Below are positions 1,937-59,821 of a stretch of 64,000 bases of DNA, in pieces. The stretch covers positions 143,657,296 to 143,721,295 of the forward strand of contig CM041776.1 of assembly GCA_023374045.1 (NCBI GenBank). Direction: 5' to 3'. The stretch is from Limonium bicolor (taxonomy: Eukaryota > Streptophyta > Magnoliopsida > Caryophyllales > Plumbaginaceae). Within the stretch, counting starts at the first letter, position 1. The number at the start of each line of letters is the position of its first letter. Both the position numbers and the translations under genes were made by a program. The notes below the pieces were generated by a model. That model did no database searches. It was not told the origin of the DNA and saw only the letters and a program-made list of their open reading frames with translations.

Positions 1937-2643
1937 AGTGTTATCACGCGGCTTCTCGCGTTGAGATCACTTGCCAGTTAAGGGGTGAAGAGACCGCGCT
2001 GAAGCGCAAAGCCAACAACAAAAACACCAGCACTGAGGAGCAGAACCAGGGGAAGAGCTGGAAAAAGAAGAAAGGGAATTTCTTTCAGCAATCCCAAAAG
2101 AAATCCCAGGGTGAGAGCAGTGCCCATGCTGAGCAGGGCAAACCAGCTGAGCTTCTTCAGCTTGGTTATTCTGCACCGGTGGCAGCAAAGCCACTGAGAT
2201 CACACCCACCTAAGGGTAAATTTCTAATCCAATTTGTATTCGTATAAGTAATGTATCTAGTATATCCACGCACACATGTGCTAACCCTCTAACCTCAGGT
2301 TCTAGCTCCGGTGCCGCCAAAACCTTCGCCGATGGCCGCACCTATGTGTGCAGAAAGTGCAACCAGGACCATCCTGGTAAAGACTGTTATGGGAGAGACA
2401 TCAAATGCTACAACTGTCAGAAGTTGGGACACACAGCTAATAGATGCCCAGAGAATGCTAAGCCAAAGGGAAACTTTCAGAACTACAAGCAGAGAGAGGG
2501 CAAGGAGGTGGCATTTGGCGATGCACCGGCCCAGCAGGCACCTCAGGGACAGGGATCCCGGGGTCCTCAGAGGGGTGCACCCCAGAGGCAGCCTGTTCTT
2601 CATGTTATCGACCGTGATGGGTCCGGTTCGAAATCCGGCCCAG
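1937..2643 (+). pseudogene. gag: Gag, C-terminal part with zinc knuckles (Gyp-A), two predicted exons
   Basis: Capsid/nucleocapsid protein of the element. Only the part after the LTR insertion remains. The first exon (coding from 1939 to 2215) begins with a stretch matching Gyp-B gag exon 2 (Gyp-A CYHAASRVEIT, Gyp-B CYHAAAKVEIT) and is then Lys/Gln-rich. A predicted 83-base intron (2216-2298) restores the frame to the second exon (2299-2643). That exon holds two zinc knuckles: CRKC-NQDH-PGKDC (CX2CX3HX4C, a variant spacing) and CYNC-QKLGH-TANRC (standard CX2CX4HX4C), which bind the genomic RNA. A basic, Gln/Pro-rich tail follows. The exon ends ...SGP-G at a splice donor at 2643/2644. The same exon order and junction phases recur in Gyp-B. 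Confidence 0.8.
2216..2298 (+). other. Predicted gag intron (83 bp), Gyp-A
   Basis: The donor is AAGG|GTAAAT and the acceptor CTAACCTCAG|GTTCT, with a branch-point-like CTAAC upstream. The intron interrupts a Gly codon after its first base (phase 1). Removal joins the two gag frames exactly. Gyp-B has an equivalent 81-bp interval at the same codon (32129-32209). No transcript evidence is available here. Confidence 0.65.
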
Positions 2644-2796
2644 GTAATCATCTAAACCTTTAATCCTTGGAGTAGCATGACTAAGTAGTAGAATAATTGT
2701 TTGAATGAATGCATGAGTAAATAAGTGAAGTATGTATGAAGCATGAAATGAAGTAGTTGAAACTAGTACTTACTGTAGATGAATTTATAACCTTAG
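2644..2796 (+). other. Predicted intron between gag and AlkB exon, Gyp-A
   Basis: The donor is CCAG|GTAATC and the acceptor AACCTTAG|GAAGC. Splicing joins a Gly codon (G2643 + GA2797-2798) in frame with the AlkB reading frame. An alternative acceptor at 3676/3677 (CCAATAG|GTTGT) joins the same donor in frame with the protease, skipping AlkB. Both options are phase 1 and both are conserved in Gyp-B. Confidence 0.65.
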
Positions 2797-3536
2797 GAAG
2801 CTTTAGTATCTGTTACCCGATACCGGTAAACTTGAATCAAGAAGAGATCGACATCACCAACCACGACTACACCAACAATCAGTGTCAGGTCATCCGACCA
2901 GGTATGATCTTATTAAAGGGATACCTGACACCCGAAGCGCAAATCTCAATCATTCGACGATGCAACGAGCTAGGAACGGGTCAAGGTGGATTTTATACAC
3001 CCGAATTCCCCGGTGGAGCGAAGATGAAGCTGAAGATGATGTGCTTGGGAAAGGACTGGAATCCTTATACCAAGACATACCAGGAGACACGAACACGAGA
3101 TGGAGCGACGCCACCGACAATACCGCCAGAGTTTCAGACACTCGTCGCACAAGCAGTAGGACTTGCACAACAATGTGAACCTGAACTGATCCCCGCACTC
3201 GAAGCGGATCTCTGTATCGTCAACTTCTACGAGAAAGAAGGACGACTTTGGTTACACCAAGACAAGGACGAGACAGCGGAATCTCTTGAACAAGGAGTGC
3301 CCGTAGTGTCTTGGTCCATTGGTGATGACGCCGTATTCCTGTATAGCGAGCAGAAGCGTGTGGACCTCGCACAGAAACTGGTATTGAGATCAGGAGATGT
3401 CCTAATCATGGGTGGAAACTCTAGGATGCTGTATCACGGAATCAACAAGATCAAGTTGAATACGGCACCGCCGGCGATAATCAATGCCACACACATGAAA
3501 CCAGGACGCCTAAACCTTACCTTTAGAAAGTATTAA
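2797..3536 (+). CDS. AlkB-like Fe(II)/2-oxoglutarate dioxygenase domain of Gyp-A
   Basis: Predicted oxidative nucleic-acid demethylase. The reading frame is open from 2757 (259 codons with the upstream ATG); by homology with Gyp-B the exon starts at 2797. Counting from the ATG at 2757, the iron ligands are H167 and D169 in LHQDKDE and H227 in MLYHGI. The 2-oxoglutarate arginine and substrate-site arginine fit RLNLTFRKY (R251, R257). NFY (156-158), [12 protein letters not shown] and [11 protein letters not shown] also fit the AlkB fold. The N-terminal part ([32 protein letters not shown]) matches my recollection of plant ALKBH1-type enzymes, which act on N6-methyladenine in DNA or methylated adenines in RNA. 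The frame is complete with no stop or shift, although the downstream pol is decayed. It sits between the zinc knuckles and the protease. It could be translated as a Gag-AlkB fusion after splicing, or alone. Enzyme activity and substrate are inferred only. Confidence 0.92.
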
Positions 3537-3676
3537 ATTCCTAGTATCATGTAATCTATTAGTAACGTGTATTAGAGACACGGTATGTATGATGGTTGGT
3601 TTATCAATAAAGAGCAGTGTTGATTTAATTCCACTTGTGTCCACCATCAATACTTATCCAATTGTGAATCCAATAG
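3537..3676 (+). other. Non-coding spacer with protease-exon splice acceptor
   Basis: 140 bases between the AlkB stop and the predicted acceptor CCAATAG|GTTGTGG at 3676/3677. If the upstream gag donor is used with this acceptor, the whole AlkB exon is skipped. The Gyp-B counterpart (30761-30915) is 155 bases and ends CACAATTAG|GTTATGG. Confidence 0.55.
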
Positions 3677-6600
3677 GTTGTGGGCTCGGTACCGAAGGTA
3701 ACCTGAGCATCCTCACCGAAGCACAAGCCGGCAAGAGCGGCACCATTCTAACGGGAACCTTCCCAGTAAATGGCATTGATGCCAATGTGTTATTCGACTC
3801 CGGCGCCTCTCACACTTTCGTATCACCATCCTTTGTGAAGAGGTTGAAGCTAGATGCGGATGAGCTACCGAACTTCATGGTTACTCTCCCATCGAAGGAG
3901 CGAGTAAAGTGCACCAAGTATTACCAATCAGCCACAATCCAAATCAAAGGCGAATCGTTTCCCATTTCCTTCATCGAATTCAACGGATTGGGATTCGACG
4001 TAATCATTGGAATGAATTGGTTGGAGCGGCACAAGGGTAGAATCCTCTGTGCCGAGCATCGTTTGCTGCTCAAGAGTCCTTCTAGGGTTACAGTATCTTA
4101 CCGCCAGAGACCGAGAGAGCCTTCGACCACACTCATATCTGCCATGGCTATGTACCGGGAGCTCAGAAAGGGCCAAGAAGTATATATGTGTTATGTGCAA
4201 GACCTGGAGAGAGATCCAGAGTTCAGTGACGATGTACCCATTGTATCCGAATATCCCGATGTATTCCGTAAGGAGCTACCCGGCATGCCACCACCGAGAG
4301 CAGTGGAATTTGAAATTGATCTATTGCCAGGTACCGGTCCCATTGCCAGGGCACCGTACCGCATGGCACCTGCAGAAATGACCGAATTGAAAGAACAGTT
4401 AAGACACCTTCTAGACAAAGGGTTTATACGCCCGAGCGTATCACCCTGGGGAGCACCGGTTCTCTTCGTGAAGAAGAAGGACGGTAGCCTCCGACTTTGC
4501 ATTGACTACCGCGAGCTGAATGCGGTCACAGTCAAGAATAAATACCCACTACCACGTATCGACGACCTATTCGACCAGTTGAAAGGAGCCTCAGTCTTCT
4601 CCAAGATCGACCTCCGTTCAGGGTATCATAAGATTGCAATCAAAGAGCAAGACATCGAGAAAACGGCATTCCGTACCAGATATGGCCACTACGAATTCAC
4701 GGTGATGCCATTCGGTTTGTCAAATGCACCATCTAAATTCATGGACCTCATGAATCGTTTATTCAGCGAGCAGTTGGACACTTCGGTTGTGGTCTTCATC
4801 GACGACATCCTTGTATATTCCAAATCACCAGAGGAACATGAAATCCATTTGAGGAAAGTGCTTGAGACACTGCGCGAGAACCAGCTGTACGCGAAGTTCT
4901 CCAAATGCGAGTTTTGGCTTGATCAGGTATCATTCCTTGGACATGTCATCTCGAGCGCAGGTATCTCGGTTGACCCTTCTAAGGTAGAAGCTGTACGATC
5001 ATGGCCTAGACCCAAGACTGTTACCGACATAGGAGCTTTCTTGGTCTAGCCGTTTACCGGAGATTTGTAAGGGACTTCTCGAAAGTCGCTAAGCCCATGA
5101 CTACACTGATGAAGAAAGATGCACCGTTTGTGTGGACACACGAGTGCAAACTATCATTTCAGAAACTGAAAGACTCATTGACCTCAGCGCCCGTCCTTAC
5201 TCTTCTAGAGGGCACAGAGGGATTTGGGTGTACTGTGATGCATCAGGCAAAGGAATGGATGCGTACTCATGCGCATGGCAATGTTTGTTGCATATGCCTC
5301 TCGCCAGCTGAAAAAGCATGAGGAGAATTACCCGACTCACGATTTGAGTTAGGAGCCATTGTCTCGCCTTGAAGATATGGCGACACTATCTCTATGGGGT
5401 AAGCATCACCATCTACTCCGACCATAAGAGCTTACAGTATGTATTCACTCAGAAAGAATTGAACTTGAGACAGAGAAGATGGATGGAATTTCTTTCAGAT
5501 ATGACATCAATCTGCAGTATAAGGAAGGGAGGCAACATCGTAGCCGACGCCCTGAGCCGTCGAGCACACTCGCTCCATTCGCTACTTCGCTTCTTCTAGC
5601 TTGGTTGACGAGGTGCGAGACGCTCATTGAGCGACCCTTACCTAACCGAAATCAGACACAAGATCGAGAATGTACATTTGAGAAGAAAAGTATGATTTTA
5701 AGCTACATGAAGATGGTTTGATTCGGTTTGAATGGCAGGCTATGCGTTCCCCGAAGCAATGCTGAGCTAAGGGATGGTATCCTGCGAGAGTCACACTGTT
5801 CCACATTGTCAGTCCATCCGGGAGCCTCCAAGATGTACAAGACATGAAGAGGTACTTCTGGTGGTCTGGAATGAAGTCAGATGTGACGGAATTTGTATTG
5901 AGATGCTTGACATGCTAGAGGTAAAATTTGAACACCGTAGACCGGGCGGAATGGTACAATCTATGCCAGTTCCGGAGTGGAAATTTCATGATATCTCCAT
6001 GGATTTTGTTGTAGAACTCCCACCTGCCAGGGGAGGACTCAACATGATCTGGGTTGTAGTAGATCGCCTTACCAAGGTTGCCAGATTCATACCGATGAAG
6101 GACACCTGGAAGGTAGTAAAGCTAGCTGAGCTTTTCGATAAGGAGATTATCAGACACCACGGAGTCCCTAGACTATAGTATCTGACCGCGACACCAGATT
6201 TCTTTCGAGATACTGAAAGCTACACGGGAAGCGTTGGGTACAAAATTGAAGTTGAGTACCGCCTTCCATCCTCAGACCGACGGTCAGACAGAAAGGACCA
6301 TCTAGACACTGGAGGACATGCTTCGGGCATGTGCCTTGGACTTTCAGGGGAGTTGGTTAGATAAGCTTCACCTTATCGAGTTCTCATATAATAATAGTTA
6401 TCACGCCTCGATTAAGATGTCGCCTTTCCAAGCTCTATACGGTAGACCTTGCCGTACACCCTTGTGTTGGGATGAGTCAAGTGAATCGGTCATAATAGGA
6501 CCGGAGTACCTTGAGCAAGTACAAGCCAAAGTGCAACAAATCCGAGCTAACATGAAGGCAGCCCAAGATAGACAGAAATCCTATACGGATGTGAGACGAC

Positions 6601-7039
6601 ACGACCTTGAGTTCGCCGTGGGCGACCAAGTGTTCTTGCGAGTTTCACCTATGAAGGGTGTCTTCAAATTTGGTCAGAAGGGCAAGTTAAGCCCAAAGTT
6701 TGTAGGGCCGTACACTATCACCGAAAGAGTTGGATCCGTAGCCTACAGGTTAGCACTACCTGAGGACTTGGGGCGTGTCCATGATGTATTTCATGTGTCA
6801 CAACTCAAGAAGTATATTGTTGATCCTTCTCATGTGTTGGAGCCCGAGCACTTATCCATTGAGCCAAACATGAGATATGTCGAAACCCCAGTGAGAATCC
6901 TTGATAGGAAGACCAGAGACACTCGCCATAAGTCTATACGAATGGTGAGGTCCTATGGTCAAACCATGATGTCGAAGAAGCGACATGGGAGTTGGAAGAT
7001 GCCATGAAGGCTAAGTACCCACAGCTGTTCATAGACTAG
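3677..7039 (+). pseudogene. pol: Pol polyprotein of Gyp-A: protease, RT, RNase H, integrase, chromodomain-like tail (degenerate)
   Basis: Aspartic protease with DSGASHTF at about 3800. Reverse transcriptase has [27 protein letters not shown] and the catalytic FIDD at about 4797. The frame is open to 5049. One missing base near 5031 then shifts DIRSFLG-type sequence out of frame. RNase H (5097-5600) is broken by several shifts; [13 protein letters not shown] and ADALSRR remain. Integrase has VVVDRLTK (first Asp), an SDRDT segment after a TAG at 6176-6178, and TDGQTER (Glu) followed by a TAG stop at 6303-6305. The DNA-binding tail runs 6318-6950. A shift near 6950 separates it from a chromodomain-like end (VEEATWELEDAM) terminating at TAG 7037-7039. 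Chromodomains target insertion to chromatin. This copy cannot make Pol. Confidence 0.88.
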
Positions 7040-7475: not shown

Positions 7476-8157
7476 TGAAATACCCCGTAATTAAAAACAG
7501 TGATTAATTAGACTAATAAATAATTTAGAGGCTTAATTAAGTGTAAATAATCATGAGGGAACAAATCCCGAAGAAAACGGATCCTTAAAATGGATTAAAA
7601 TCACTAATGAACATTAAAGCGCGTTTTTCGAGGTAACCGGGAAAACGTGTCTTTAAACGGGTCAAATAGACTCGTAACAATTTTAGTCAACTAAATAATC
7701 ATTAATAAATATTAGTGAGCTTTAGAACCAATAAAATCAAGAAAACGAGAAATTAGTAAATACTGTCAAAAACGGGAAGTTGTGGGGTAGAAGTATAAAC
7801 AACACAAACTTATGTGTCCAATTTTGTAAATAAAATTTTAAAACCCCTAGAGGGTCTGTGTGCTAGCCGATTTTAAGGCCCCCCTCACACCCTCACACTC
7901 TCCTCTTAACTTAACTAAAGACAAAAAACAATTAAAAACACAAAAGTAACCCCCACTCTCACATACTCTCTCTCCTACCCCATTCTCTCCTCTCTCTCAC
8001 GTGAATACCCTCACCCAGCACCCTCTCTTTTCTTCCTCCTCCTTCCTCATCGGTCATCCATGGAGAAATAAGGAAACCTCACAAAAACTACCACTTCTCT
8101 CCTTGTGTTAACCCATTAAACTTGCTCCAAAAATTATAAAAACTACACCATTGTCTT
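7476..8157 (+). mobile_element. 3' LTR of Gyp-A, first part
   Basis: Begins TGAAATACCCCG directly after the polypurine tract. It is interrupted at 8157 by LARD-C, whose LTR begins TGTAACACCCC at 8158, and resumes near 52142. It includes a CT-rich stretch at 7880-8050. The two parts together give about 3.97 kb. Confidence 0.8.
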
Positions 8158-11100
8158 TGTAACACCCCTACTCTGATCGGCTCCTAATCATCTTACTTAA
8201 CAATATAATCGCAGCGGTAATCTCAACAACTCAACTACTGGTGTCACCGTTCTCACTCGCCCATACGAGTAATAACGTGCTTCCTGATATATTCTTACAT
8301 ACGAAACATTTTCTCGCAGTGACAACAAGAGATAGATCTAAACTTCCCAACCAAATGTAATACATTCACAGTGAGCTTTCTAAGTATCCAAAACCTATAC
8401 ACGTTTCTAGGTTCGTATCAAAATGCAACAGTGCATGTTCGAATAACTGTAATCATACTACCCAGCGCGTCACTCTCTTTGCCGACACCGGAAGTTGCAT
8501 ACCTGCAAAAATAGTAGTTTGTGGTATGGAATCAGCCCCTGCTGAGTATGTTATTACCTGACTGTCATGCACCCTCGGACCATTCAGTTATTTGGTCGAG
8601 AGCATGCAAACCATTTTCATGCAAATAGTTTAATATTAAAACTGTAAAGCAACATTATATTTTGCAGTAAACTCAAATAACAAATAAGCCCCCGGCTCCA
8701 CACATCGCATCGTAATAGACCACTGAAAGCGTTATAACGCTTATATGAGTACGTAGACTCCACTCCAACAACACCTGAAAGTTCATAGTTGAGTACGTCG
8801 ACCCGTTCGACGAACAATCCACAAAATCCACACACGAGCACAGTGACTCGACTCATCCAGTTCACACACAGATATAAGTACAGTTTATTTAATTAATCCA
8901 ATTCACAACACACACTTATGAGTACAACGACTTATTCAATCAACACCACCAACATACCACACATAACCACACAGCATAACCAGTGAACAACAAGGCAAAA
9001 CAACGAGAATTATAAACGAGTATGAACTCTCGTCTTTGGCATGCACGCCCACATAATGTTCGCCTAATGTACGAGTTATTTAAATCGTCGTAATTGTTCG
9101 GTCATGTCTAATGACAACGTCCATAGAACGACGTGTCTCTAAGTTACCACCATCTCTTTGGCGGGTCACCCACGGCAATAGCCACTCCAGCGGTAGAGTC
9201 TCCGTCCTACGAACATCTGTAGTTCGTTGGAAATTTATCCTGATACTTACGGTTACCACACGGTATCCTAGTATCGTTAATGGATCACATTTCACAGCAA
9301 GAGCCACATCCTCTTGATAACTTATCATACCCGCATCGTTTTATTACTTCCTTTAACACAATAGACTAAGGTCGTTAGTCCAATCCTGAGTATGTCGACT
9401 CGGATCCAGTGTTAGATACGAGAGCGGCGTTAAAGAGGCCAAATGCTCCGTATATAAGTCTCAGATAATAATATCTTATTATCCTGATGCACAACGTACT
9501 TACGTTCCTTATGTTACACATACAAGATAGCATCACTGCCGCTAGTTCGTTTTATAATATGTTCATATTACGAACGGTACTGGTATCGCATGACAGTAAT
9601 AGTAAAGCAGCATTAATACACAACTCAAGCATATTAATTCACACAAGCAGACATTCAATCTTATCACAGATTTTCACACAATGTCTGAACTGAGGGAATC
9701 CTCAGAGACAATCAAGCCACATAAATAACATAACCGTTCACCCTGGTATTACGGTGGAGTATGAATCAGCAAGATCCTATGCTCCGTGTGTCGTCTCTAA
9801 CAGTCTATACAATACATAACGCTACTTTAGCATACTGTATAACAACACAAAATTCTACGGTACCCCGTACGTCACTAATAACTCCCTGTTAACCCCCCGT
9901 AATTAACTGTCAATGTGGTCGGGGCTTTCGGTTTAACTCGAGATTGGAAAGTGTTACATTACATGCGTAGTCTTATCTCGTATTTAACATACTTATTGTT
10001 GGACTTTGTTATCGCATGTAACTTAAAACGTATATTTGTAGATCGTATAGTTTGTTTCTTTATTGCATGTATGATCTTCGTCATGCACTAACATCTCACC
10101 TTAGTATTTATTTTTCTAAGGTTAGTTTTTCCAAGTGTAATGTTGTATAATTCATATGTACAAATACTTTGAATTATATAAATCCTTATTATTTCATGTA
10201 CACTCTTAACATTAGAATTCCATATCCAATGTTTATAATTCTTTCCCTTCATCTCATATCATTTTAATTGTGGTAACACATAGTTATTGAACTATATTAT
10301 ATTTTCCACAATGACATATATTTATTTATGTATATGCATTATAGGGCTATTTATTATATGGTAAGTCATTATAATATATATTCATTCTTTTTGATGAATA
10401 CCTCTTATATTATAAATGTTATAGCTCTTATAACATAAAAACCATATTATAAACTTCATTCCAAAATAGTAATATTCCGAACAGCACCTATAATCCCAAT
10501 ATTTACAAAATCCACCACATAATTATATAATGTTATATTATAGTTGTAAAACATATATTATGACATTTAAGTCATTAAAACAATTATAACCTATAGTTAT
10601 ATTTTGTTATAAAATCCAAACAGCACTTAAACTCTCGGTTTTTAATTAATTCCCACCAACTTCCATAACTTACAATCAATCCCAAAAATATATTCCATTG
10701 TTACACTTATAATGTATACCTTATATATAATCCTTAAACCTTAATAAATTAATAACCCATAGTTATAATTTCTCCAAATGCCGAGCAGACCCCATGGTCT
10801 ATTTAAATTTAATTTCCACCACTTACTTTCTATATTCACCAATTTACCCCATTTTTAAACATATAGTTTCTAATATCACCAAAACTATATATTATCTATA
10901 TCTTCATAAAACCTTATATATAATCCCAAAAATTACGAAACCATACCAAAAGGTTATAAATATCATTATTAACCTTATACTTCCTCTAAATCTCGGTTTT
11001 ACCACATATGTTACCCATGTGTAACAGTTATGAAATATCTTATAATATACCTAGATAATCATATAAACTCCAAATTTACCCAAATCAACTTCTAAAAATC

Positions 11101-13166
11101 CCTAATAATCTAAGGTTTGTACTAAGCTCCATTTAGTACCCCTAGTTTTCGGAAAATCACAATACCACCCCAAGACTTATAAATCTTTACAATTTAATTA
11201 CTATCTTAATATAAGGTAGTATTTTAATTCCTTAAATTCTCCAAACTTGGTCAAGGTCTCCTACATAGTCAACTTTGACTACTAATACCAATTGGGACCC
11301 AAACTTTTGGTAATTACCAACACCCCCATACTTTTCTATTTTTACAATTTTTACCCAAAACTTTATAAAATGTTATACTTCTTATTAAATTCATTAAAAA
11401 CCCTAAACTGCTCTTATTTACCCACGGCTTTCTAATTCCTTAATAATTACGAATTGGCCCCAACTTAATTAAGCATAAATAAGCTTATAAACTTAAATTA
11501 AAATGGCCTAATGACATGGCCTTATTACAACCTTGAACTGCAAAATAAATTACACAATAAATGTCTCAAAATATCACATATATATTCGGCCTCACTTAGG
11601 TTTAATTATTTTTCCACATAATGTCATAATTTGACCATTATGTTAATTAAATCCCTTAAATGACTAGCTTAATTTATCTTAGCCATTTTTTTCCATTTTA
11701 GGTCAATATGACCTATATATAATTCACTCTCGGCCATATATATATATATATATGCTTAAAAATTACAAAAATCATAAGTTTAATGTTTATACCTGATTTT
11801 CCTTGTATAGGCTCGGTCACTTGTAGGAAAATTCACCACTTGATTTAGACATGTTTAATACACAAAAACAAGATATGGTTACACTCCAAGCTTGAGCTTA
11901 ACCATAGGAATAATTAATGTAAGATTTAAGGCAAAAATCACCTTAAAAATGCAAGGGAAGTTCTAGGTATTTTCGACCTGAACCAAACACCACAAGGTGT
12001 TAGATCCACCATATTGACATAGGAAATAGTTAGATCTCGAAATACTACCTTGTTATTAGGTTTTTACCTTGGAAAAATGCCTTAAAAGAGAGTATTTCTT
12101 GGATCTCGGTCCCCACCCTTGCTCCAAATGGCTAACCAACAGATTCCACATGAAAAGGAGAAGAAGATGAGCTATGACCAAAGTTTCACAGCCAAACTCG
12201 AAGGGAATCAAAAGTTATGAGCTTAAAGCACATTTTTACCTTAAATGTAGATTTGAACAACCTTGGTCCTCTACTGTCTCAACCGAGTTTAGCTCTTGTT
12301 CTAACCTTAGAACACTGAGAATAAGCCATAGGAATTGATGAGGCCACGAAATTTAGGTGTTGGTGGTGAAGAGATGAAGAAAAAGAGCTAAAATGACATT
12401 AAAACACTTACATTAGGAGCTTAGGAGTTAGGCTTGCCTTCCATGCTCAAGAACACACTGGAGAGCTTGAGAGGAAGGGAGAACTCGGCTGGGATGGTGA
12501 AGATTGGACAAGGAAGGAAGGAGGAAGGAGGGAATGATTGGTAATAATGAAAAAGTAACTTAATTTGAAAAAGTCATATTAGGTAGCATTATTTGTCATC
12601 AATGACTTATGCTCCATCCTCTTATTGCACCGGCCTCCATGGTCCAAATGAGTCAATTAATTGACCATTGACCATGCTTGGTCAATGTTGACTCATGTGG
12701 GCCCCACTTTAGGGTTTTATTAATATTTTAATATTAAATTTGTAAAAATTCGTAAATTTCTGGAATTAAATTCCTAATATGATATAATATGATAAATATC
12801 ATATTTAAGGATAATTAATCATTAAGCCCATTAAAATCAATTTAAAAGGCAATCTCACAAAACGTGCTTTAAGGAGTTTTAGCGCACATTTTGTGTCACA
12901 GGATGTTCCTGAGCTTAGTTCTCTTTGAGAATGGTTTTATTGTGTTCCTTGCTTCATTATAATACTTAGGAATCCACTTTGGATCCTGCTTGGGGTCATA
13001 CAACCTTCATGGTGTCTTAAAGCACATTTTTGGCTTTACCGATCTAAGGCGTGTTTTGCCTTGTTGAGCTCTTTTAAATTGTTCCCCAATAATATTTAGA
13101 TGTTTAATAATCATCTTAGATCATTAATAGATCATTTAATTTATTTTAAAGGTTAGGGGTATTTCA
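8158..13166 (-). mobile_element. 3' LTR of LARD-C
   Basis: 5009 bp, TGTAACACCCC...GGGGTATTTCA on the plus strand, nearly identical to 47097-52141 with frequent one-base indels. AT-rich from about 10000 to 11800, with a (TA)n run near 11738-11753. There is no credible ORF: the longest frames are short, unsupported and not conserved between copies. Confidence 0.85.
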
Positions 13167-13660: not shown

Positions 13661-13665
13661 TGTGC

Positions 13666-16600
13666 TGTAACACCCCATCCAAAGCCTATCGTGGTTATCG
13701 CAATCTGAACACTTAATCGAATACGCCGCAGCGGAAATAAACAACACCTGGACCTCGCCACGGTCTGATCGTTAGAATATACCGGCTTAAACGCTTACAA
13801 TACTTATCCAAAAATACTTATCCAGCTTAAACATCAACATTCATAACACCACAACCAACCGAGTACTAGTATTTTACACATGATCCCAAACTTACATCAG
13901 TTTAATATAAACAGTCGGTGCACGGCGCAACCAACTCAAAATGAATGTCCCGACCTAAGTCTAACCGCTCCTACTCTAGTAGTGCGTCCTCATGGGCCTC
14001 TTACCTGCAAGTGTAAAAATAGCCCCCGAGGGGTCAGCACGAATGCTGGTACACCCTCTCATGGCCCCCAAGCTAACGGGGCTACGACGACTATTGTCGA
14101 TAGCATGGAATTGATTACATACACAAGCATAATATGAAGTGCAATAACAATACCACAGATGAACATATATAGTTCACAACCAATGAACGACTCAAGCGTT
14201 CCCTTAACAAGTGGGTTAGTAACCCCCTCCTTAGTCCTCATTTCCTTAATCTTAGTTCCTTACCTTACCTTACTTAATCTTAATCTCAATCTTAATCTTA
14301 ATCTCAGTATACAACCTTTCCTGGAAGGGATTGGTTGTAGCTTAATTCGAACCTGGGATTTAGGTGATCCCACCGCAAATCTTAATGCCACCTACTCTGG
14401 ACGGAGTCCAGCGTAGCTGAGCCGGCAACCGGCCCTAGGCAACAAGTCCGAAGACAAGTCCTTAAGCGGAGGGCGGATCTGATTCAGATACCGTCCCCTT
14501 TTTCCTCAGCATGCATGACCGGAGATCGGTCCCGGGTTTCCTCACTCAATTCCAGTTAGTAGACATCTTAAACACCATGTGCTAGCTAAGCCTTATTGGG
14601 CATTAACCAACAACCACCAAACTTAACTCTTATTCTTAACTCAGTAAGTACTAAACCTGGTTAGTAATCATCTCAAGTCTCGCGGGTTAGTTGTAAAGAT
14701 AACACAACACAACGAGAATAAATATAACCGGTTTGCATGCTTATTGTTTAAGTCATAGCAAGTAAACAGATAGCACACAAGCCGAGGGAACACCTCGTTA
14801 GCAAGCAGGTCACAAGAAGGATTGTACCGTTCACCGTCGATCGTTGTTTGACTAATCTTCTTCGGGTCCCAATTCACAAACCTAAAACATTCATTCATTT
14901 TTAGGTTATTAGTTATTGCACCTTACTTAACTCACTTAGTTCCTAAAGATTCCCATTTAATACCCTCTTAAGTCTTTGCCCCTAGCTTACAACCTTAACT
15001 TTAAACTTAAACTTATACTTAATCTTAACTTAATTCCTTAAGTTCTTAGGGTCCCAATCATTACCACCCTATCAAAGGTTACCTCATACCTATCACCATT
15101 CTTAGAATTCAAAATTTCTTTTTTTCTAAGTGTTAAGGGTCGACCGACCCACCGACCGACCCTACCCTGGGTCGGTCCATATAGAAACTCTTTCGTCTCT
15201 TGAAACCCCTCCGACCGACCCAGAGCTAGACGACCGACCCAAACCCTCTGGGTCGGTCCCTTACAGACCCATTTTCCTACTTAAACCTTGCCCGACCGAC
15301 CCAAGGCTAAGCCGACCGACCCAAACCCCCTGGGTCGTCCAGTCCAAGGCATTCCGGATGGCTTAACTTGGCCCGACCGACCCAAGACTGGGTCGGACCC
15401 TGGGTCGGTCCTCTACAGACCTTCCTCTTAAATTGCCTCTTTCAATTCCAAACTCTTCCACAAGTGTCCTAATAGGTCCAACACCATCTTGGCACCTTAA
15501 ACCCACCTTATAACCTCCACCAAACTCATTAAATCATTCACCAAAATCCATCTTAGTCATTATGCTTTTTCCTTGTGATAATGCTACACTTGTAATGCTT
15601 TCCTCTAGGTTTCTAGGTGGTGGTTCATACCTAATGTAACCACTATGCCAAATGTTTCCTTCACCACTATAACATCATCTCCCGAGCATCTCTCACCACC
15701 TAAAACTCTTTTAAGCATTTACTTAATGTTCTTTCACAACTTAAACTTCCTTCCTAGTTGTGCACCAACATTTACCTAAGTCCTAAATACTCAAATACAT
15801 TCTCTTGATTCATAAATCTCCCATGGTGATACCTAAGTCATCATAAGTCATTAAAACACCTTAACTTCACCCTTTTCCATCAAGACAACCTATAGAACAT
15901 TCCTAGTACTTCATTGATCATTAAATTCCCTTAGAATATCTTAAACACTTAAACTCTCCTTAAAATTTTGCCATAGGTTCTCTAGTATATAATACCACCT
16001 AACACAGGGTTTTTCTCCATCAAACAACCAACATCACACAAATTCTCACCACAACACCTTAACACCCAATTTACACCAAAGCCCCACAATCATCATATAG
16101 TGCTTAAACTTAAAATGCTTGGCACTTAGGCCCTTAAATGACAATAATCTTAACCACTGAATTTCCACATATATAAGCCTTCAACCTGCGAATACACTCA
16201 ACAGGCTCCCATTGAAATAAATGCTTCTTGTACTTCACCTTTATATTCTTAAACTATCTCTTTCTCATTTGCTCCTTAGTCACAAGTTCACAAGAATAGT
16301 CATTGTTTCTCCTAGGTTTTATAGCACCTTCCCAATATAAACTCTACACTAAACTCATCATATACCTACATCTCATTCCCTTAAACAACAAAACACCTTA
16401 AGGTAAGTATTTACCTTGTTTTCTCACAAGCTTAAAAGCTTTCTCTCCTTAGGTTTTCTTTGTTCAATCTCGGTCACCAATGTGATTCTCCTTGCCAATG
16501 TTCTAACCAATATCCAATGACTCCAATGAGTACTAGATAACACATTAACCCTAAGGAACAAACCCTAGGTTAAAAATATGCTTTAAGGTATTAATGTGAT

Positions 16601-17722
16601 TATTTTACCTTGGTTTCCCAAGACAAACTTGGATATGAAGCAAGAAGGACCTCCTCTCTCCTTTGAAGAGTAGAAACAAGCTAGAACAAGGCATAAACAT
16701 GGAGTCCCATGAGTATATATTTTCGGACATGTGAAGAAAATGGTGGAAACCTAGATTTTCTTACACTTTCTTTACCTTAAGAGAATGGAGATGCCAATGG
16801 AGTCTCCAAACTTGAATTTCCTCCTCTAATGGTGGTTTGACTTGGCACCAAAATGAAGCTCTTGAAGTTTTGAAAAGATAGAAAGGAGGAGCTTGAGCTA
16901 ACTAAGAAGAATATGTATTTTGTTTTGGATTTGGAGTTTAAATGAGCAAGTGGTGTGCAAGAGAAGATGGAGCTTTCATGGAGTTGAGCTCTACGTGAAT
17001 GGAGAAGAGAAAGAGAGCAAGAAACCGTGTGAACAAGGGAGAATGAAGAAGTGAGGAGAGAGGTAAGTAAATGTGATATTTATCTTAAAAGGTGAATAGT
17101 GTTTTTACTTTATAACTTACTTATTTTTGCTTTCTCTTTACTTAGCTAGATAAGTGTGGTGAGTCACACTTAAAAAAAACCGTCCCCCTTTAATGAATGA
17201 GGGTAGTTTAGTCTTTGTTGACCAAATGTCTCACTTATATAGACTTATGTTATAAACTAGCTTAATTAATTCACTATTCATCAAAAACAAGGCACATTGT
17301 TGTGAAATTTTTGATTTCCCATTGATATAGACCTCCAAATGTGATACTATATAGTACCATATTAATTAAAGAGTAATGATGGACATTTAGCCATTCAAAA
17401 CTCATTTACAAGACAATTTTTCAAAAACGTGCTTTAAGACTCCTTAAAGCACATTTTGTGTTTTAACTTGTTTTCAAGCTTGGTTTTCTTTGGTAATTGA
17501 CTTAAAATGACCATTAGGATATTACCAAGGTCTTAGAACAATATTTGGGTACTCTCCCAAGTCTCTCCAAGCTTAGAGCGCGTTTTTGTCAAAACTGCTC
17601 TTTTGGTGTTTCCTTATATTTTCTTTGATTAGAAATGTTTCTTAATGTTTCTAAGGCATTATTTAGCCTCCTTATATCTTAGTTTATCATTTGAACACCA
17701 TATCTAAGTTTGGGGTATTTCA
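13666..17722 (-). mobile_element. 3' LTR of Gyp-B
   Basis: Starts (plus strand) TGTAACACCCCATCC and ends TTGGGGTATTTCA at 17722, followed by the minus-strand polypurine tract. It matches 33425-37466 along its whole length. Differences are largely one- or two-base indels. No supported gene. Confidence 0.9.
15141..15410 (-). repeat. GACCGACCC/GGGTCGGTC inverted-repeat cluster in Gyp-B 3' LTR
   Basis: Several direct and inverted copies of a 9-10 base word, for example CCGACCCA-aga-cTGGGTCGG near 15373, spaced about 60-75 bases. The transcript would fold into strong short hairpins. The same cluster is at 34909-35178 in the other LTR and in Solo-D. Confidence 0.85.
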
Positions 17723-18028
17723 ATCTACCCCCCTTAAAAGAACTTTGTCCTCAAAGTTCAGACATGTGCTTAACCATTCACGGTACACATTTCTCTTAAT
17801 CTTAATACCACATCTTATATTCACATTCATCATCTCAAGACTCAAAGGTCAATCTCAAATACAATACATAAGTATTATACATAACTCAAACTTACAACCG
17901 AAGTGTAGCAACTTACACAAATTCACATCTTAAACAAAAACAAACGACAAACATGATCGTTTCCTAACTCAAAAGCGAGGAAGCTCTACCCCCCTTAAAA
18001 GGGTACGCCCGTACCCTATACAGACGAT
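17723..18028 (-). other. 3' untranslated region of Gyp-B with two polypurine tracts
   Basis: On the minus strand, AAGGGGGGTAGA occurs next to the LTR (about 17726-17735) and again about 260 bases upstream (about 17987-17998). The doubled arrangement is the same as in Gyp-A. No ORF is supported. Confidence 0.75.
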
Positions 18029-18668
18029 CTAGTCAGTAAATAAAGAAGGGTACTTCGCCCTCATCTTATCCTCTAATTCCCACGTGGCCTCTTCGACATC
18101 CTGGTTAGACCAGAGAACCTTCACCAGTCACACTGACTTGTGGCGAGTGTCCCTAGTCTTATTGTCCAAGATTCTCTGAGGAGTCTCCACGGATCTCATG
18201 TTTGGTTCTAAAGTCAACCTCTCAGGTTCTAACACATGGGAGGGGTGGTGCATGTATTTCTTTAGCTGTGAAACATGAAAAACATCATGCACTTTACCCA
18301 ACTCAGCAGGTAAATTCAACCTGTAAGCAACCGGGCCCACCCGCTCCGTAATCTCATAAGGACCAACAAATTTCGGGCTTAACTTGCCCTTCTGCCCAAA
18401 CCTGAATACACCCTTCATCGGTGATACTCGCAGAAATACCCGGTCGCCCACTGCGAACTCCAGGTCCCGTCGTCGAACATCAGCATACGACTTCTGCCTA
18501 TCTTGAGCAGCTTTCATGTTCTCCCTGATTTGCTGAACTTCAGCCTTAACTTGTTCTAAGTACTCTGGTCCTATAATGACCATCTCACTCGACTCATCCC
18601 AGCAGAGCGGTGTACGACATGGTCTACCGTACAACGCTTGAAAAGGTGCCATCTTGATCGAAGCGTGA
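18029..18668 (-). pseudogene. pol: Gyp-B integrase C-terminal part and chromodomain-like tail
   Basis: Continuation of the integrase frame after Cop-E. It begins ASIKMAPFQALYGRPCR next to the CGTGA duplication. The DNA-binding region follows (VGDRVFLRVSPMKGVFRFG, KLSPKFVGPYEI, VHDVFHVSQLKKY). A TGA at 18128-18130 replaces an Arg codon. The same frame then continues to a chromodomain-like end (LVKVLWSNQDVEEATWELE) and the natural TAG at 18029-18031. Cop-E split the gene between the codons of SYH and ASIK. Confidence 0.88.
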
Positions 18669-19486
18669 TGTTGGGACATCGGAGTGTTGCAGAGATAGCC
18701 TTTCACCGCGACAGAGTCGAGCGTCATTTGACAGACACAAAGACTGAGCTTCTGCGATGGAGTCCGCGCAACAAAGAAGACTCCACAGAGTCTGCCATGC
18801 TGTTGCGAAAAATCAGGAGTCAACTCGGAGCACATTAAGCGCCTCAACGGTCACCAAGCTCTTCCTCAACACCGAAGATCGCGGCCCAAGTAAGAAGACC
18901 AAGTAAGAGCCGTTGGAAGTTGCCCACTAAGTTAGTTCCGGTATTTTCGGAACTAACTCCTTCGATTGGCTGCTACACTTAGAGTATAAATAAGACATGT
19001 AATAGATAGTTGTAAGTGTGCTTTCATTGAGTATTATTCCAGAGCTTAGAGAGAGAAAGAAGAATTGCATTGTAAGCCCGAAAGAGAGAGAGATTCGTAC
19101 CAAGTTAGTTAGCACCTCTAGAAAGACTCTATCTAGGAAGATCCTAGTTTCATTACGCTTACCATTGTTCTGATCAGAGAGTGTGTTGGGTAAGTGAGTG
19201 AAAACCGCTAAGTAGATTTCCTCTACTTAGTGGGCATCTGTAAGTTGTTTTGTTTGACCAGGAAATGAAATAACTTATTTGTGTATCTTGCTGAGTTTCA
19301 CAGAGTCCTTCTTTCCTTCTATTGTCTCACTACAATTACCACAAGAGTCTTTCGTGTCATTAGTCTAGTTTATTCGATTGAGTGACTCTGCTTCATAGAG
19401 TGCCTCTTAGTAGAGAAGACGATTGAGTCAAACCAATCCTTAGACTCACACCTTTGGTTGGTTTGAGTTAGCCACCCGATCCTACA
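18669..19486 (+). mobile_element. 5' LTR of Cop-E
   Basis: TGTTGGGACATC...GATCCTACA. Contains a TATA box (TATAAATA, 18985-18992) and GA-rich tracts near 19045-19095. Confidence 0.92.
18985..18992 (+). promoter_or_regulatory. TATA box of Cop-E 5' LTR
   Basis: TATAAATA in the middle of the LTR, repeated at 27510-27517 in the 3' LTR. The likely transcript start is some 30 bases downstream. Confidence 0.65.
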
Positions 19487-19488
19487 CG

Positions 19489-19500
19489 TGGTATCAGAGC
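19489..19500 (+). other. Primer binding site (initiator tRNA-Met), Cop-E
   Basis: TGGTATCAGAGC two bases after the LTR end, complementary to the 3' end of plant initiator tRNA-Met. Confidence 0.9.
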
Positions 19501-19532
19501 CTCGCTTAGGCTAACGATCAATCAACGAAGCA

Positions 19533-21615
19533 ATGGCAGATCTCTTTGCCAACCAAAACAACAAAATGCACTTCGAGCACCCCAGACTCACCTCCACCAA
19601 CTATGACCATTGGAAGAACGAGATTGAGCAACACATTGAGTCCGTCAACTCTGAGCTTTGGGAGATCGTCACCGGAGGCGATCTTGAAGTTAATCCAGAC
19701 CGATCAACATGGACCTGCAGCATCGCAAAGATACGAGCTGAATCGACAAGCATCACGTGCGATATACACTTGCTTGTCCATCCCAGAACAAAGGAGAGTC
19801 AATCACTGTAAGTCCGCAAATGAGATATGGACACTCCTTCAAGCAACCCGAAGGAGTCACTGAACTCAAGAAATGCAAAGCTCAAGAACTTCGAATGGAC
19901 TATGAAAATTTCCTGCAGAAACCCGGTGAGTCTCTGGAAGAAGTGCTTGATCGTTTTATTTACTAACCACTACTATGCAGGAAGTTAGCATCCTACCAGA
20001 TAGAGAGAGTGTTTTACACAAGTTGCTGGACAGTCTGAGAGAAGAATGGGCAGAAACGGTAATCTCCACCAAAGCATGCAAGGACTTATCCAAATGGAGC
20101 TGTCAAGACCTAGGTTCCTATCTACAATCCGTAGATAAATACAAGAAGAATGTTCGAAGAAGTGTGGTAATGCTTCCTCTTCCTCTTCTGGTAAGACTGC
20201 TACTCTGAATGACCAAGCCTTGCAGGTTAATTCAACTCAGTTAACTCAAGAAGGAGCCTATGTTGCTGATACTCAAATCAGACAAGTCAAGGCTGAACTG
20301 GTGGATATTATTGTTGAGGAAAGTGAGGCTGAGACTATGGAGGACTTCGTCTTCATAGTCAAGAACTTCCGAAAGTTCATGCGTAACCAACCTAATCGAC
20401 AGAGTCGGTCGTTCTCGAACACCTCTAAACAAGTTTTCAATTCCGTCACTTGCTTCAATTGCAATAAACCCGGTCACTTCAAGAAGGACTGTCCTTTACT
20501 CAAAAGCCATTATGGAAAATCTCAAGGGAGATCACTCATGGCAGCTGTTGGATGGGGCGATTCAGACTCCGACGATCCAGACACAGAGTCCAGCGGACTG
20601 GTATGTCTAATGGCACATGACACGACGGAGTCCATGATCCCTGATAATGAGGTAACCCGTTCTCACCTTGAAACAGACCTTTACCGTATTTCTCCCATGG
20701 GATTTATGACATTAATTGCTAAGATTGTCTCTGAGACAAACTCTCTCAAAGCAAGTCTCAACAAAAATCTCCGAGTTAACAGAGGAGCTCGAAATATCAA
20801 AAAGTCTTATGTATGCCTTAAGAGACGAAGCTGAGGAACAAAAACCATCTCTGTTCTCTAAGGCTAGATCTACAAGAATCAAGGTGTCATGTTGACTCCC
20901 TTGAAAAGGAACTTCGTGATACCTTAGAATGCAATCAGTTTGAACAGGGTGACCAGAAAGAGTCTCTCACCCTGATCGACTCCCTCAAACAAGACCTCAC
21001 CATCTTTACTGATAAGTGTTGTTCTCTTCAAAATGATCTTAATGCTTCTGAATCCAAAAACATATCCTTGAACACCACTATCAAAAATCTCACTCAAAAA
21101 TTGAAAGAAAAAGAACACGCCCTTTCCCTTAAGCCAGTCAAGTTTATCAAACAAGTCACCGCCTCCGAACTACCTGAGTGGGCCAATTCCAAAATCAAAG
21201 AAATTAGCCAAGATCGAGATACTCTTCGCTCTAAAGTAGAACAACTCTCTCAGCAGATTGTGAATCTACAATCCGGAGTTCGATCCACTCAATCCACACC
21301 CAAGTGGCACAAAGGAAAGTTCGACATCCACAAAATATGTCCAAACCTGACAACAGAATCAAACGATATCAAGAAAAAGAAAAATTCGACTCCTGGTGGA
21401 AAGGACAACAGAAATACGTCAATCTTCCACCAACCAAGATTTGTGGCTACTGCGGGAGTCTTGGACATCGAGACAGTGCATGTGATAAACTGAATAGAGA
21501 TCTCTCTTTTAATGTCAAACGTGTTAAACTGATACTTGAAGCACGAGAAAAATTGAAACAGTCTGGCTCGAAAAGGGAACCCAAGTACATCTGGGTTCCC
21601 AAAACTAACAAATGA
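19533..21615 (+). pseudogene. gag: Gag of Cop-E (frameshifted)
   Basis: Starts MADLFANQNNKMHFEHPRL, then NYDHWKNEIEQHI, typical of copia Gag N-termini. The frame moves near 19710, 19850 and 19970. The pieces contain ELKKCKAQELRMDYENF and LLDSLREEWAETV. A zinc knuckle CFNCNKPGHFKKDC lies near 20452-20493. A long coiled-coil-rich stretch (about 20700-21290) follows. A second knuckle CGYCGSLGHRDSAC lies near 21441-21482, and the segment ends KYIWVPKTNK at 21615. Gag packages the RNA into virus-like particles; this copy would not make it intact unless the shifts are sequence errors. Confidence 0.85.
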
Positions 21616-21630
21616 TCTGTTCTTTTGTAG

Positions 21631-24600
21631 GTGAAGGCGAATGGAGACAGCTGGTACTTGGACAGTGGATGCTCTCGTCACATGACTGGAGATCCAAATC
21701 AATTCAATTCGCTTTCATCCTACCAAGGAGGTAAGGTTACTTTTGGAAACAACAACCAGGGTGAAATCGTGGGAGTTGGATCCGTAGGTAACCCCTCAAG
21801 ATTTAAAATTGATGGAGTCCATCTGGTCACTGGACTCCAGCATAGTTTATTAAGCATCTCTCAAATTTGTGATAGATTCAATTTGGTACTTTTCTCCTCT
21901 TCGGATTGTAAGGTTTATGATGAGCGTACAGGTTCACTAAAAGCTGTGGTCGTAGAGAAGGCAATCTCTACAAAATGTGCTTAAACTCCATTAAGCCAGA
22001 CGACCAAGTCTGTCTCAATGTGCATTCCAAAAACTCACTGATGTGGCACTCCAGACTTGGCCACGCAAATCATAGGCTGTTGAACAAACTCAAAAGCAAG
22101 GACTTGGTGATTGGTTTACCAGACACCACCTTTGACACAGACTCTGTCTGTGAAGCATGTGTTAAAGGTAAACACACCCGGTCCTCATTCAAAAGTAAGC
22201 CTACTCTCTCTACTAACTCTCCACTGGAACTACTACACATGGATCTTGTTGGCCCCATGCGACACAAAGCAGAAGCGGTAAGAGGTACATCCTGGTCATA
22301 GTTGATGACTATTCCAGGTGGACCTGGGTCATTTTCTTATTTACCAAAGATGAAACTTTTACGGAGTTTGTCAAACTCCATAAAATGCTTGTCAACAAGT
22401 TTTCATTCACTCTAAAGACCCTGAGAACGGACCAGGGTACTGAATTTTGCAATAAGTCGTTTGATGAGTTTTGCAGGGACAATGGAGTGGATCACCAAAT
22501 CTCATCTGCACGCACTCCAGAACAAAACGGAGTAGTTGAACGCAAGAATAGAACCTTGGTAGAAATGGCTCGCACCATGCTCATCGACAGTCAACTTACT
22601 CCATCTTATTGGGCAGAGGCCGTTAACACAGCTTGCTATGTGTTAAATCGTGCGATGATTCATCCATTCCTTCACAAGACACCCTATGAACTACTCCGTC
22701 AACGTAAACCAAGTCTTCTACATCTCAGGCGTTTCGGATGTAAGTGTTTATTCACAACAATGGTAAGGACAACTTGGGTAAGTTCTCTCCTAAAAGTGAT
22801 GAAGGTATTTTTCTTGGCTATTCTTCTAAGCAAAGCTTATCGTGTTATCAATCTTAGAACTCAATGTTTAGAAGAAAGCCCGCATGTCAAGTTCGATGAG
22901 TCCCACAATGTTGGCTCATCTTCTGATCAACTTGACTTTGCCCCCGATGATTTTCTCACCGATCCACACTTCATCACTGTACCAATAGGAAGACTCCCTG
23001 AGTCCCACTCCATCACTCCTCATGTTTCCCCTGCAAACAAAGACAATTCATCAGAATCTACAGACTCAACAACCCCGGAGACACCCTTACAACAAAACTT
23101 GAATTTTGACTCCTCTGAAAAAGAAACACCCCCTCCTGCTTCACGTCGCCATTTCCAGCAAAGATCTGCTCACCCTCCTGAAAACATCATTACAGACCCA
23201 AACACCGGTGTCCAAACACGCCTACAAGCCATGCAAAATCTCTGTGCCTTTGGTGCTTTTCTGTCTAGTACTGAACCAAGAAATGTCAAAGAAGCACTCC
23301 TTGATAGTGATTGGGTTACTGCTATGCAGGAGGAACTCATTCCCTCCAGCGCCATGCTGTCTGGGAATTAGTTCCTCGCCCCACGCATCAACAAGCCATT
23401 GGCACTCGTTGGGTCTTTCGTAATAAACTTGATACTGCAGGCAAGTTTTCAGGAATAAAGCTCGATTAGTTGTTCAGGGCTACAATCAAGAAGAAGGGAT
23501 TGACTATGACGAAACCTTCGCTCCAGTAGCTCGTCTTGAGCAATTCGCATGTTCATTGCATTTGCTGCTACAAAGGTTTCCAATATATCAAATGGATGTT
23601 AAGACGCCTTCCTCCACGGCTACATTGATAGAGAAGTTACGTCGAACAACCTCCAGGATTCACAGACTCCGTCCATCCCAACTATGTTTACAAACTATGT
23701 AAGGCCCTTTACGGACTGAAACAGGCTCCACGCGCCTGGTATGAAAGACTGTCTACATATCTATTGCAAAATGGTTTCTCTCGAGGTAATGTAGATAAAA
23801 CGCTCTTCATTCTACACTCATCACATGACTTACTTCTAGTCCAGATCTATGTTGATGATATCATTTATGGTTCTACAAGTAACACCCTCTGTGACCATTT
23901 TGCTAACCTTATGAAGCAAGAGTTTTCCATGAATGAGTTAGGTGAGCTCAAGTTCTTCTTAGGATTACAAATTCAGCAAGAAGAGGACGGGATCAAGATT
24001 CATCAACAAAAGTACATCAAGGAACTCCTTGATAAGTACAACCTAAAAAATGCCAAGAGTATGTCCACACCAAGCTGTACATCTGCAAACTACATCCTGA
24101 TGATGACGGAGTCGGCGTGAATGCCACTGAATATAGAGGAATGATAGGGTCTCTCTTGTACCTGACTGCCAGTCGCCCAGACATTCTCCATGTCTGTCTT
24201 TGTGCTCGCTTCCAAGCAGCACCAAAACAGTCTCATCTCAAAGCAGTCAAGCGCATCTTTCGCTATCTTAAAGGTACAAGTACACTCTATCTATGGTATC
24301 CACGATCTCCTACTTTTACTTTATCTGGATATAGTGACTCTGATTGGGCTGGTTCTCTCCAAGATCGAAAGAGTACTTCAGGTAATGCACAGTTCTTGGG
24401 TCTTTGCCTTGTTTCATGGTCCTCCAAAAAACAACACTCCGTAGCACTGTCTACAGCGGAGGCAGAGTATGTCTCTGCTGCAGCATGTTGCTCTCAACTC
24501 CTTTGGATGAAACAACAACTTCAAGACTATCATATCACCCAAGAACAAATCCCAATCTTTTGTGACAACAAAAGCACAATCAAAATATCCGAAAACCAGT

Positions 24601-37466: not shown

Positions 37467-37471
37467 TGTGC

Positions 37472-43491: not shown

Positions 43492-43496
43492 ATAAT

Positions 43497-47092: not shown

Positions 47093-47096
47093 CTTT

Positions 47097-59790: not shown

Positions 59791-59821
59791 TCTTATCATA
59801 TGTGAGAATCCAATCAAACTT

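Follow-up and report, generated by a model that had tools for sequence, protein, structure and literature searches.

What a nucleic acid demethylase domain does inside a retrotransposon, and how it is produced there, is the question raised by a 64,000-nucleotide stretch of the Limonium bicolor genome (assembly GCA_023374045.1, contig CM041776.1, positions 143,657,296 to 143,721,295 of the forward strand; hereafter the window, with positions counted from its first letter). In this window, an AlkB-type frame lies within a Ty3/gypsy long terminal repeat (LTR) retrotransposon, Gyp-A, and a second, diverged element on the minus strand, Gyp-B, has an AlkB domain in the same place. From the analysis below, we conclude that the AlkB domain is likely an alternative exon of a long-kept, high-copy Ty3/gypsy family, and we predict that the resulting Gag-AlkB protein would demethylate packaged RNA or cDNA. 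We put the probability of this reading at roughly 60%.

A complete AlkB domain between gag and protease

The plus-strand frame at 2757-3536 is open over 259 amino acids (aa) and contains a complete AlkB domain. The AlkB profile PF13532 covers the frame end to end (profile positions 1-194 of 194, E value 1.8e-43, score 149.5 with a cut-off of 31.2), and the closest solved structure is that of rice OsALKBH1 (5xeg, E 1.8e-71), with E. coli AlkB matching at E about 2e-20. A chance open frame was ruled out by these profile and structure-database matches, and is also excluded because of the profile score taken together with the second copy and the genome-wide match count given below. A preliminary description of the locus, made from the letters alone, had assigned the frame to a Ty3/gypsy element, as an AlkB-type domain following the Gag zinc knuckle and preceding the protease, and this placement holds, for a domain that is moreover conserved, multi-copy and under purifying selection. 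The frame it delimited is indeed open and has the AlkB hallmarks, but coding is predicted to begin only at 2797, with 2757-2796 belonging to a predicted intron.

The window domain contains the HxD motif (LHQDKDE), the distal His (YHG) and the RLNLTFR motif. Among 11 aligned proteins, N156, Y158, H167, D169 and H227 are invariant and R251 and R257 nearly so; among 121 aligned proteins, Y158, H167 and D169 remain invariant while N156, H227, R251 and R257 are each kept in at least 90%. In AlkB structures, the HxD and the distal His are the iron ligands, and the N, Y and two R residues bind 2-oxoglutarate (2OG). The structure predicted from the 121 sequences has the expected jelly-roll fold with a mean predicted local distance difference test score (pLDDT) of 91.4, an earlier model from only 11 sequences having reached 46. 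A Foldseek search with this model returned OsALKBH1 at the top (5xeg/5xoi, 50% identity, template modelling score 0.90-0.92 by target length), followed by E. coli AlkB with methylated DNA. Thus, both the profile search and the structure prediction that had been proposed as checks came out in favor of AlkB.

In Gyp-A, the AlkB domain stands between a CCHC zinc knuckle (about 2330-2460, by reading) and a frame at 3589-5049 for an RVP_2 protease and a reverse transcriptase (RT). The parts of Gyp-A, including the introns proposed in the next section, are as follows:

1937-2215, plus strand: gag exon 1, remaining part, with the 5' part missing (sister alignment; frame CYHAASRVEI...)
2216-2298, plus strand: predicted intron 1 within gag, GT...AG, 65% A+T (GT/AG in 21/21 A copies)
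2299-2643, plus strand: gag exon 2 with the CCHC zinc knuckle (from the sequence; a sister copy matches zf-CCHC PF00098 at E 6.1e-06)
2644-2796, plus strand: predicted intron 2a, 70% A+T (shared donor GT 2644; acceptor 1, AG 2795-2796)
2797-3536, plus strand: predicted AlkB exon, ALKBH1-like 2OG-Fe(II) dioxygenase (stop TAA 3534-3536)
2644-3676, plus strand: predicted alternative intron that skips AlkB (same donor; acceptor 2, AG 3675-3676)
3677-5049, plus strand: protease and RT (RVP_2 E 7.3e-29, RVT_1 E 1e-37)
5050-7039, plus strand: RNase H, integrase and chromodomain-like tail, with stops and frameshifts here (SH3_Tf2-1 here; sister copies)
7476-8155, plus strand: start of the 3' LTR (TGAAATACCCC...), interrupted near 8156 by an LTR of another element, C (sequence; blastn edge)

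The window copy is 5'-truncated, as its match to each of the 20 fetched sister copies begins only at 1937. Positions 1-1936 hold an LTR-like end (GGGTGTTACA) without a match in the 20 A copies, standing where the 5' gag of Gyp-A belongs. The pol frame of Gyp-A is frameshifted in the window; pieces of the sister copies encode a Gag capsid, CCHC knuckle, protease, RT, RNase H, H2C2 integrase and SH3_Tf2-1. Across Gyp-A, Gyp-B and the sister copies, we found the features of a Ty3/gypsy LTR retrotransposon: LTRs, target-site duplication (TSD), Gag, CCHC and the protease-RT-RNase H-integrase order. The element is likely chromovirus-like, and presumably close to Tekay. The Chromo profile PF00385 appears in all three sister copies scanned, with E 1.8e-5 to 3e-5 and scores of 24.3-25.0 bits that lie under the cut-off of 25.1, and a primer-binding site (PBS), TGGTATCAGAG, presumably complementary to tRNA-Met, follows the 5' LTR in 19/20 A copies and in Gyp-B. 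A tRNA-Met primer is described for most chromoviruses and not for non-chromoviruses in the passages covered of a plant element survey (PMC6317226).

Predicted splice sites and copies with joins already made

How, then, would the AlkB domain be translated? We suspected introns for three reasons: the gag frame of Gyp-A stops shortly past the GT at 2644; in 15/20 A copies no Met precedes the catalytic core in the AlkB frame, the first one falling within it (one further copy is broken); and the protease frame lacks an obvious start. Splice sites were compared across an alignment of 34 copies (21 from family A, 13 from family B). The intron 2 donor (2644) and both acceptors (AG 2796 and AG 3676) are kept in 34/34, and this arrangement of one donor with two acceptors gives phase-1 joins both from gag to AlkB and from gag to protease. 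Over 40 codons, phase 1 is open in 18/21 A copies for exon 2, 21/21 for AlkB and 18/21 for protease, and in 11/13, 10/13 and 10/13 B copies, respectively; in the A copies, the other phases of AlkB and protease are closed with a single exception. The predicted introns of Gyp-A in the window have 65-70% A+T, and the exons 44-52%. Both ends of intron 1 are kept in 11/13 B copies, the remaining two being L053, which lost the acceptor, and L050, from which the intron is precisely absent at the predicted bases. Judged from the sequence, AlkB is likely an alternative exon joined to gag by splicing.

The genome also contains copies in which these joins have already been made. A pattern spanning the gag-AlkB junction has seven exact matches (control, 0) and 122 matches with at most two mismatches, although among the first 100 listed many of those with two mismatches have CTAG or TTAG at their end, as unspliced copies would. 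We read the seven exact copies and one with a single mismatch; intron 2a is precisely missing from all eight, one of which belongs to family A and seven of which are B-like. A single open frame runs from Gag into AlkB across the fetched piece in L060, L061, L063 and L065, and stops interrupt the frame in L059, L062 and L064. For the gag-protease junction there are 14 exact matches and 37 with at most two mismatches (control, 0). The 14 exact copies, which are the ones we read, comprise six A-like and eight B-like copies, and in both families the join coincides to the base with the prediction. The identity of these copies to their own family is 78-98% in the upstream flank and 90-99% in the downstream flank, versus 53-59% and 71-75% to the other family. 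L074 is 98/99% identical (upstream/downstream) to the window Gyp-B, and L069 and L070 are 92/98% identical to A. Four of the six A-like copies (L068, L072, L073 and L080) resemble one another, and share 78-79% upstream and 90-92% downstream with the nearest A copy. Since copies with either join occur in both families, we infer that both splice products were reverse-transcribed and entered the genome.

A frameshift from AlkB into pol was considered as the main route to Pol and rejected, because the Gyp-B pol frame is closed between AlkB and pol and because gag-protease joins exist. In 15/20 fetched A copies, a pol frame (among frames of at least 100 aa) begins some 20 bases upstream of the AlkB stop.

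Copy number, selection and ancestry of the AlkB domain

Is the domain retained for its protein product, and since when? Gyp-B, the second AlkB-bearing element of the window, is laid out as follows:

33425-37466, minus strand: 5' LTR, with the PBS GTGGTATCAGAGC adjoining (TSD TGTGC 37467-37471)
31787-33205, minus strand: gag with capsid, zinc knuckle and its own intron 1, with frame breaks here (Retrotrans_gag E 3.8e-18, Ty3_capsid E 4.7e-13)
31655-31786, minus strand: predicted intron 2a (donor and acceptor kept in 13/13 B copies)
30919-31654, minus strand: predicted AlkB exon, its frame broken once near 31500 (66% identity by tblastn, E 3.6e-96)
28020-30760, minus strand: protease, RT, RNase H and the first part of integrase (frames; a nested element interrupts at 28019)
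17723-18668, minus strand: remaining integrase, chromodomain-like tail and 3' internal end (frames; SH3_Tf2-1 E 1.2e-27)
13666-17722, minus strand: 3' LTR (TSD TGTGC 13661-13665)

Beyond the window, a 24-base AlkB word with at most two mismatches occurs at 5,626 + 5,427 = 11,053 places in the genome (reversed-pattern control, 0 + 0). A one-off host exon captured in a single dead copy, the outcome against which the preliminary description had itself warned, is therefore ruled out by Gyp-B and the genome-wide copies. In a search of the plant's own 2.92-Gb genome with the A domain, which gave 52,984 first-look candidates of which most were left unscored, all 147 scored matches are 92-100% identical to the query, and by our own count of the listing 125 of these 147, a biased sample, have no internal stop. 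The B domain query gave 150 scored matches with 84-100% identity.

The two families are old relative to each other and have been active recently. LTR pieces were compared in eight A copies. Mismatches amount to 0.4-2.3% in seven of them (from 9 over 2466 columns to 57 over 2501), one of these comparisons spanning 791 columns only; the eighth copy gave no match. The LTR pair of Gyp-B is 97.2% identical, with 25 mismatches (4094 columns) and 75 gap openings. This low divergence in the A copies and Gyp-B indicates that both families moved recently. The gap openings, three times as numerous as the mismatches, suggest assembly indel errors, so that frameshift counts in this genome need care and the frameshifts seen in the copies may in part be artifacts.

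Between the families, the AlkB sequence points to strong purifying selection, with a ratio of nonsynonymous to synonymous divergence (dN/dS) of about 0.07. For 11 of the 21 A copies compared with the window Gyp-B over 192 codons, dN is 0.157-0.174, dS is 1.8-2.4 (saturated) and dN/dS is 0.065-0.090, with an upper bootstrap limit of 0.138-0.161. The RT behaves similarly, with proportions of synonymous and nonsynonymous differences of 0.81-0.87 and 0.11, respectively, over 235 codons. In the window, Gyp-A and Gyp-B are 71.5% identical in the AlkB exon and 72.1% in the start of the protease, but 47.9% in the zinc-knuckle exon, 54.0% in intron 2a and 62.4% in the stretch after the AlkB stop. The saturated dS, the low dN/dS and the protease-level identity together indicate that AlkB is older than the split between A and B and has been retained for its protein product.

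Among the named relatives of the domain, several are ALKBH1C/1D-like or DNA N(6)-methyladenine demethylases and many are listed as "uncharacterized" or "DNA oxidative demethylase". Plant ALKBH1 proteins, which are products of cellular genes, have in common with the element AlkB an N-terminal FDIC-type motif and the cofactor residues. In trees that left out ALKBH5-type proteins and named fern, moss and conifer proteins, the element AlkBs group with P0002-P0005 and P0048 (support 100/99, and 87/74 in a core-only tree), beside rather than inside the flowering-plant ALKBH1-like group. In the core-only tree, the host group is not one clade in the best tree, yet a single clade is not rejected (approximately unbiased test, p-AU 0.494). 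This position fits an old AlkB capture but is not firm. The A copies read retain the catalytic motifs, as do the P0002-P0005 proteins over the length that they cover.

Some further observations concern these relatives. P0002, P0003, P0004, P0005 and P0048 are close to the element AlkB, with 54-71% identity to the window domain, and P0003 and P0048 retain an LG before the FDIC-type motif; in the window, this LG spans the acceptor. The high score of P0122 (Artemisia annua) apparently arises because its AlkB domain is present twice. A scan of viral contigs with the element AlkB alignment gave no confirmed relatives among 244 pattern matches. Among 120 listed relatives of the element pol in the protein database, none contains PF13532, and the best pol relative has 61% identity among matches covering at least 90% of the query.

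The remainder of the window consists largely of nested repeats. Element C, on the minus strand, has LTRs of about 5 kb (8156-13163 and 47095-52141, 96.7% identical) whose ends are similar to those of Gyp-B, with which it also shares the primer-binding site. On the minus strand, which was the strand scanned, no frame in its 9.6-kb interior (37467-47094) exceeds 147 aa, and the element looks like a non-autonomous partner. Element C is inserted in the 3' LTR of Gyp-A, and Gyp-B lies inside element C. At 18669-28019, a young LTR element with copia-type frames and 826-bp LTRs that are 99.76% identical is nested in the Gyp-B integrase. Short tandem arrays occupy 53334-53805, 59210-59784 and 59807-60563, and a 0.9-kb repeat occurs at 56041-56967 and 63090-64000 (96.7% identical).

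Proposed function, rival explanations and known systems

What would such an exon do for the element? Unspliced RNA would encode Gag with a short tail, ending soon after the donor, and would also serve as the genome. Splicing to acceptor 1 would yield Gag-AlkB, which stops at the end of AlkB, and splicing to acceptor 2 would yield Gag-Pol, so that splicing would set the ratio of Gag to Gag-AlkB to Gag-Pol, as frameshifting does elsewhere. These spliced RNAs would presumably still be produced and translated today, and Gag-AlkB could be co-packaged through its capsid and zinc-knuckle parts. The targets would be marks added by the host to the RNA template or cDNA, or 1-methyladenosine (m1A) and 3-methylcytosine (m3C) lesions, which stop reverse transcriptase. 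AlkB proteins are described as repairing m1A and m3C in the passages covered of PMC10469495. By analogy, the likeliest substrate would be single-stranded nucleic acid in the particle, either genomic RNA or minus-strand DNA; it is favored by the activity of rice ALKBH1 on single-stranded DNA and by that reported for one plant ALKBH1-like enzyme on N6-methyladenosine (m6A) in RNA (PMC12736721, in the part covered). Taken as a whole, this account, with an old ALKBH1-type capture, an alternatively spliced gag exon, a particle-borne eraser, and splicing instead of frameshifting as the control of product ratio, is put forward tentatively, at slightly worse than even odds.

Several observations weigh against this account. 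First, the window Gyp-A has a Trp two residues before the first iron-binding His, where 20/20 sister copies have Gly. Second, phase 0 of exon 2 is likewise open in 13/21 A copies, so the phase of exon 2 alone proves little, and an in-frame ATG lies ahead of the AlkB exon in 4/20 A copies. Third, the AlkB-less lineage represented by L068, L072, L073 and L080 seems to have spread, which makes AlkB seem dispensable in cis; these copies perhaps spread with help in trans. Fourth, the junction copies are partly non-independent, with L076 and L077 lying 9 kb apart and L062 and L063 being near-identical. Fifth, selecting the copies for their AlkB similarity inflates the frame and intactness counts, and the B query included out-of-frame residues, so AlkB intactness in B is not fairly measured. 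Sixth, the pol frames are broken in many fetched copies. At last, the stretch after the AlkB stop does not look neutral within family A, with 10.5 changes per kb versus 10.7 in the protease.

Another explanation, which we consider unlikely, is that the Gag-spliced AlkB acts outside the particle, in the nucleus, where it would erase N6-methyladenine (6mA) or m6A on nascent RNA at element or host genes and lift silencing. The in-frame join to a gag that contains a zinc knuckle points instead to the particle, and the abundance of 6mA in plant DNA is disputed. In favor of nuclear action are the chromodomain-like tail of the element and the behavior of rice ALKBH1, which the passages covered of PMC10469495 describe as a nuclear protein that demethylates 6mA in single-stranded DNA and affects histone methylation.

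AlkB might also be translated from its own frame in an unspliced or shortened RNA, through an internal start or re-initiation and with no fusion to Gag. The frame is open from 2757 and begins with ATG in the four A copies noted above, and the Phalaenopsis case discussed below is described as a separate open reading frame (ORF) (PMC9289625, in the part covered). The position of the first Met within the catalytic core in 15/20 A copies, the conservation of acceptor 1 in 34/34 copies and the fossil gag-AlkB joins make this distinctly improbable.

A role as a mere passenger, retained only through the self-copying of the element, is highly doubtful: AlkB-less copies do exist, one group of them has apparently multiplied and many copies are broken, but a dN/dS of about 0.07 over saturated dS, conservation between the families like that of the protease and better than that of gag, and the catalytic motifs kept in the A copies read all speak against it. 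That the gag-protease copies represent an ancestral AlkB-less state and not splice products, as the separate group of four A-like copies at 78-79% upstream and 90-92% downstream might suggest, is extremely improbable given junctions at the exact predicted bases in both families, the closeness of L074 to Gyp-B and of L069 and L070 to A with only 53-59% upstream identity to the other family, and the existence of intron-less gag-AlkB joins.

Returning to the alternatively spliced Gag-AlkB, its nearest precedent is in orchids. The preliminary description knew of no standard plant lineage of this kind; in the literature searched there is one precedent for an AlkB-bearing Ty3/gypsy element, the Gypsy_Pa_2799 family of Phalaenopsis with a 2OG-dependent dioxygenase (2-ODD)/AlkB ORF, reported in 2022 (Alvarado-Marchena et al. 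2022, PMC9289625). According to the passages of that report covered here, its AlkB is ALKBH5-type, near AtALKBH9B/10B, with m6A demethylase activity in vitro; the elements are 25-kb Tat/Ogre elements with a separate 565-aa ORF2 and a tRNA-Arg PBS; and a screen of 121 angiosperm genomes found the AlkB domain in Phalaenopsis only. Both the Phalaenopsis family and Gyp-A/B are high-copy Ty3/gypsy elements with a captured plant AlkB-family demethylase and intact cofactor residues, and a methyl-erasing role on nucleic acid is likely for the former and would likewise be predicted for the latter. They differ in that the AlkB of Gyp-A/B lies between gag and protease as a predicted alternative exon, in the PBS TGGTATCAGAG and in the chromovirus-like character of the element. 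Furthermore, the nearest sequences and structures of the Gyp-A/B AlkB are ALKBH1-type, and the domain spans two families with saturated dS. A 2025 review gives the orchid family as its AlkB example (PMC12786077, in the part covered); the survey PMC6317226 names no AlkB in its section 13 or the other passages covered, no text search for the word having been made; and a review of additional ORFs (PMC7264820) has no occurrence of "AlkB".

Splicing has its own precedents. Introns are generally absent from plant LTR elements, Ogre and EVADE being prominent exceptions (PMC12786077, in the part covered). In Ogre (with an intron before RT-RNase H-integrase), EVADE and the short GAG of BARE1, partial splicing sets the Gag/Pol ratio (PMC12786077 and PMC6317226, in the parts covered), as we propose here. 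In those elements splicing joins Gag-Prot to Pol or shortens Gag, whereas here two acceptors would choose between the protease and an AlkB exon that ends in a stop codon of its own. Plant RNA viruses of the Alphaflexiviridae, Betaflexiviridae and Closteroviridae are likewise mobile parasites with AlkB domains, as cited in the part of PMC9289625 covered; unlike Gyp-A/B, they do not use reverse transcription.

The preliminary description was thus right to see AlkB in a Ty3/gypsy element, and missed Gyp-B, the closeness to ALKBH1 and the alternative splicing. Its suggestion that the enzyme demethylates the RNA or cDNA of the element, or counters host control, is plausible: a demethylase of its own, if active, would let the element strip methyl groups from its copies or weaken the control exerted by the host. 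With a long-kept and probably spliced Gag-AlkB form, both the substrate and the particle location become directly testable. The genome would serve as a fossil record of both splice forms, in which regulated retrotransposon splicing is visible from DNA alone. If our reading is true, then together with the orchid case Ty3/gypsy elements took up AlkB erasers at least twice, from the ALKBH5 and ALKBH1 branches and in different element lineages, and two such captures would provide convergent evidence for base methylation as a constraint on plant LTR retrotransposons.

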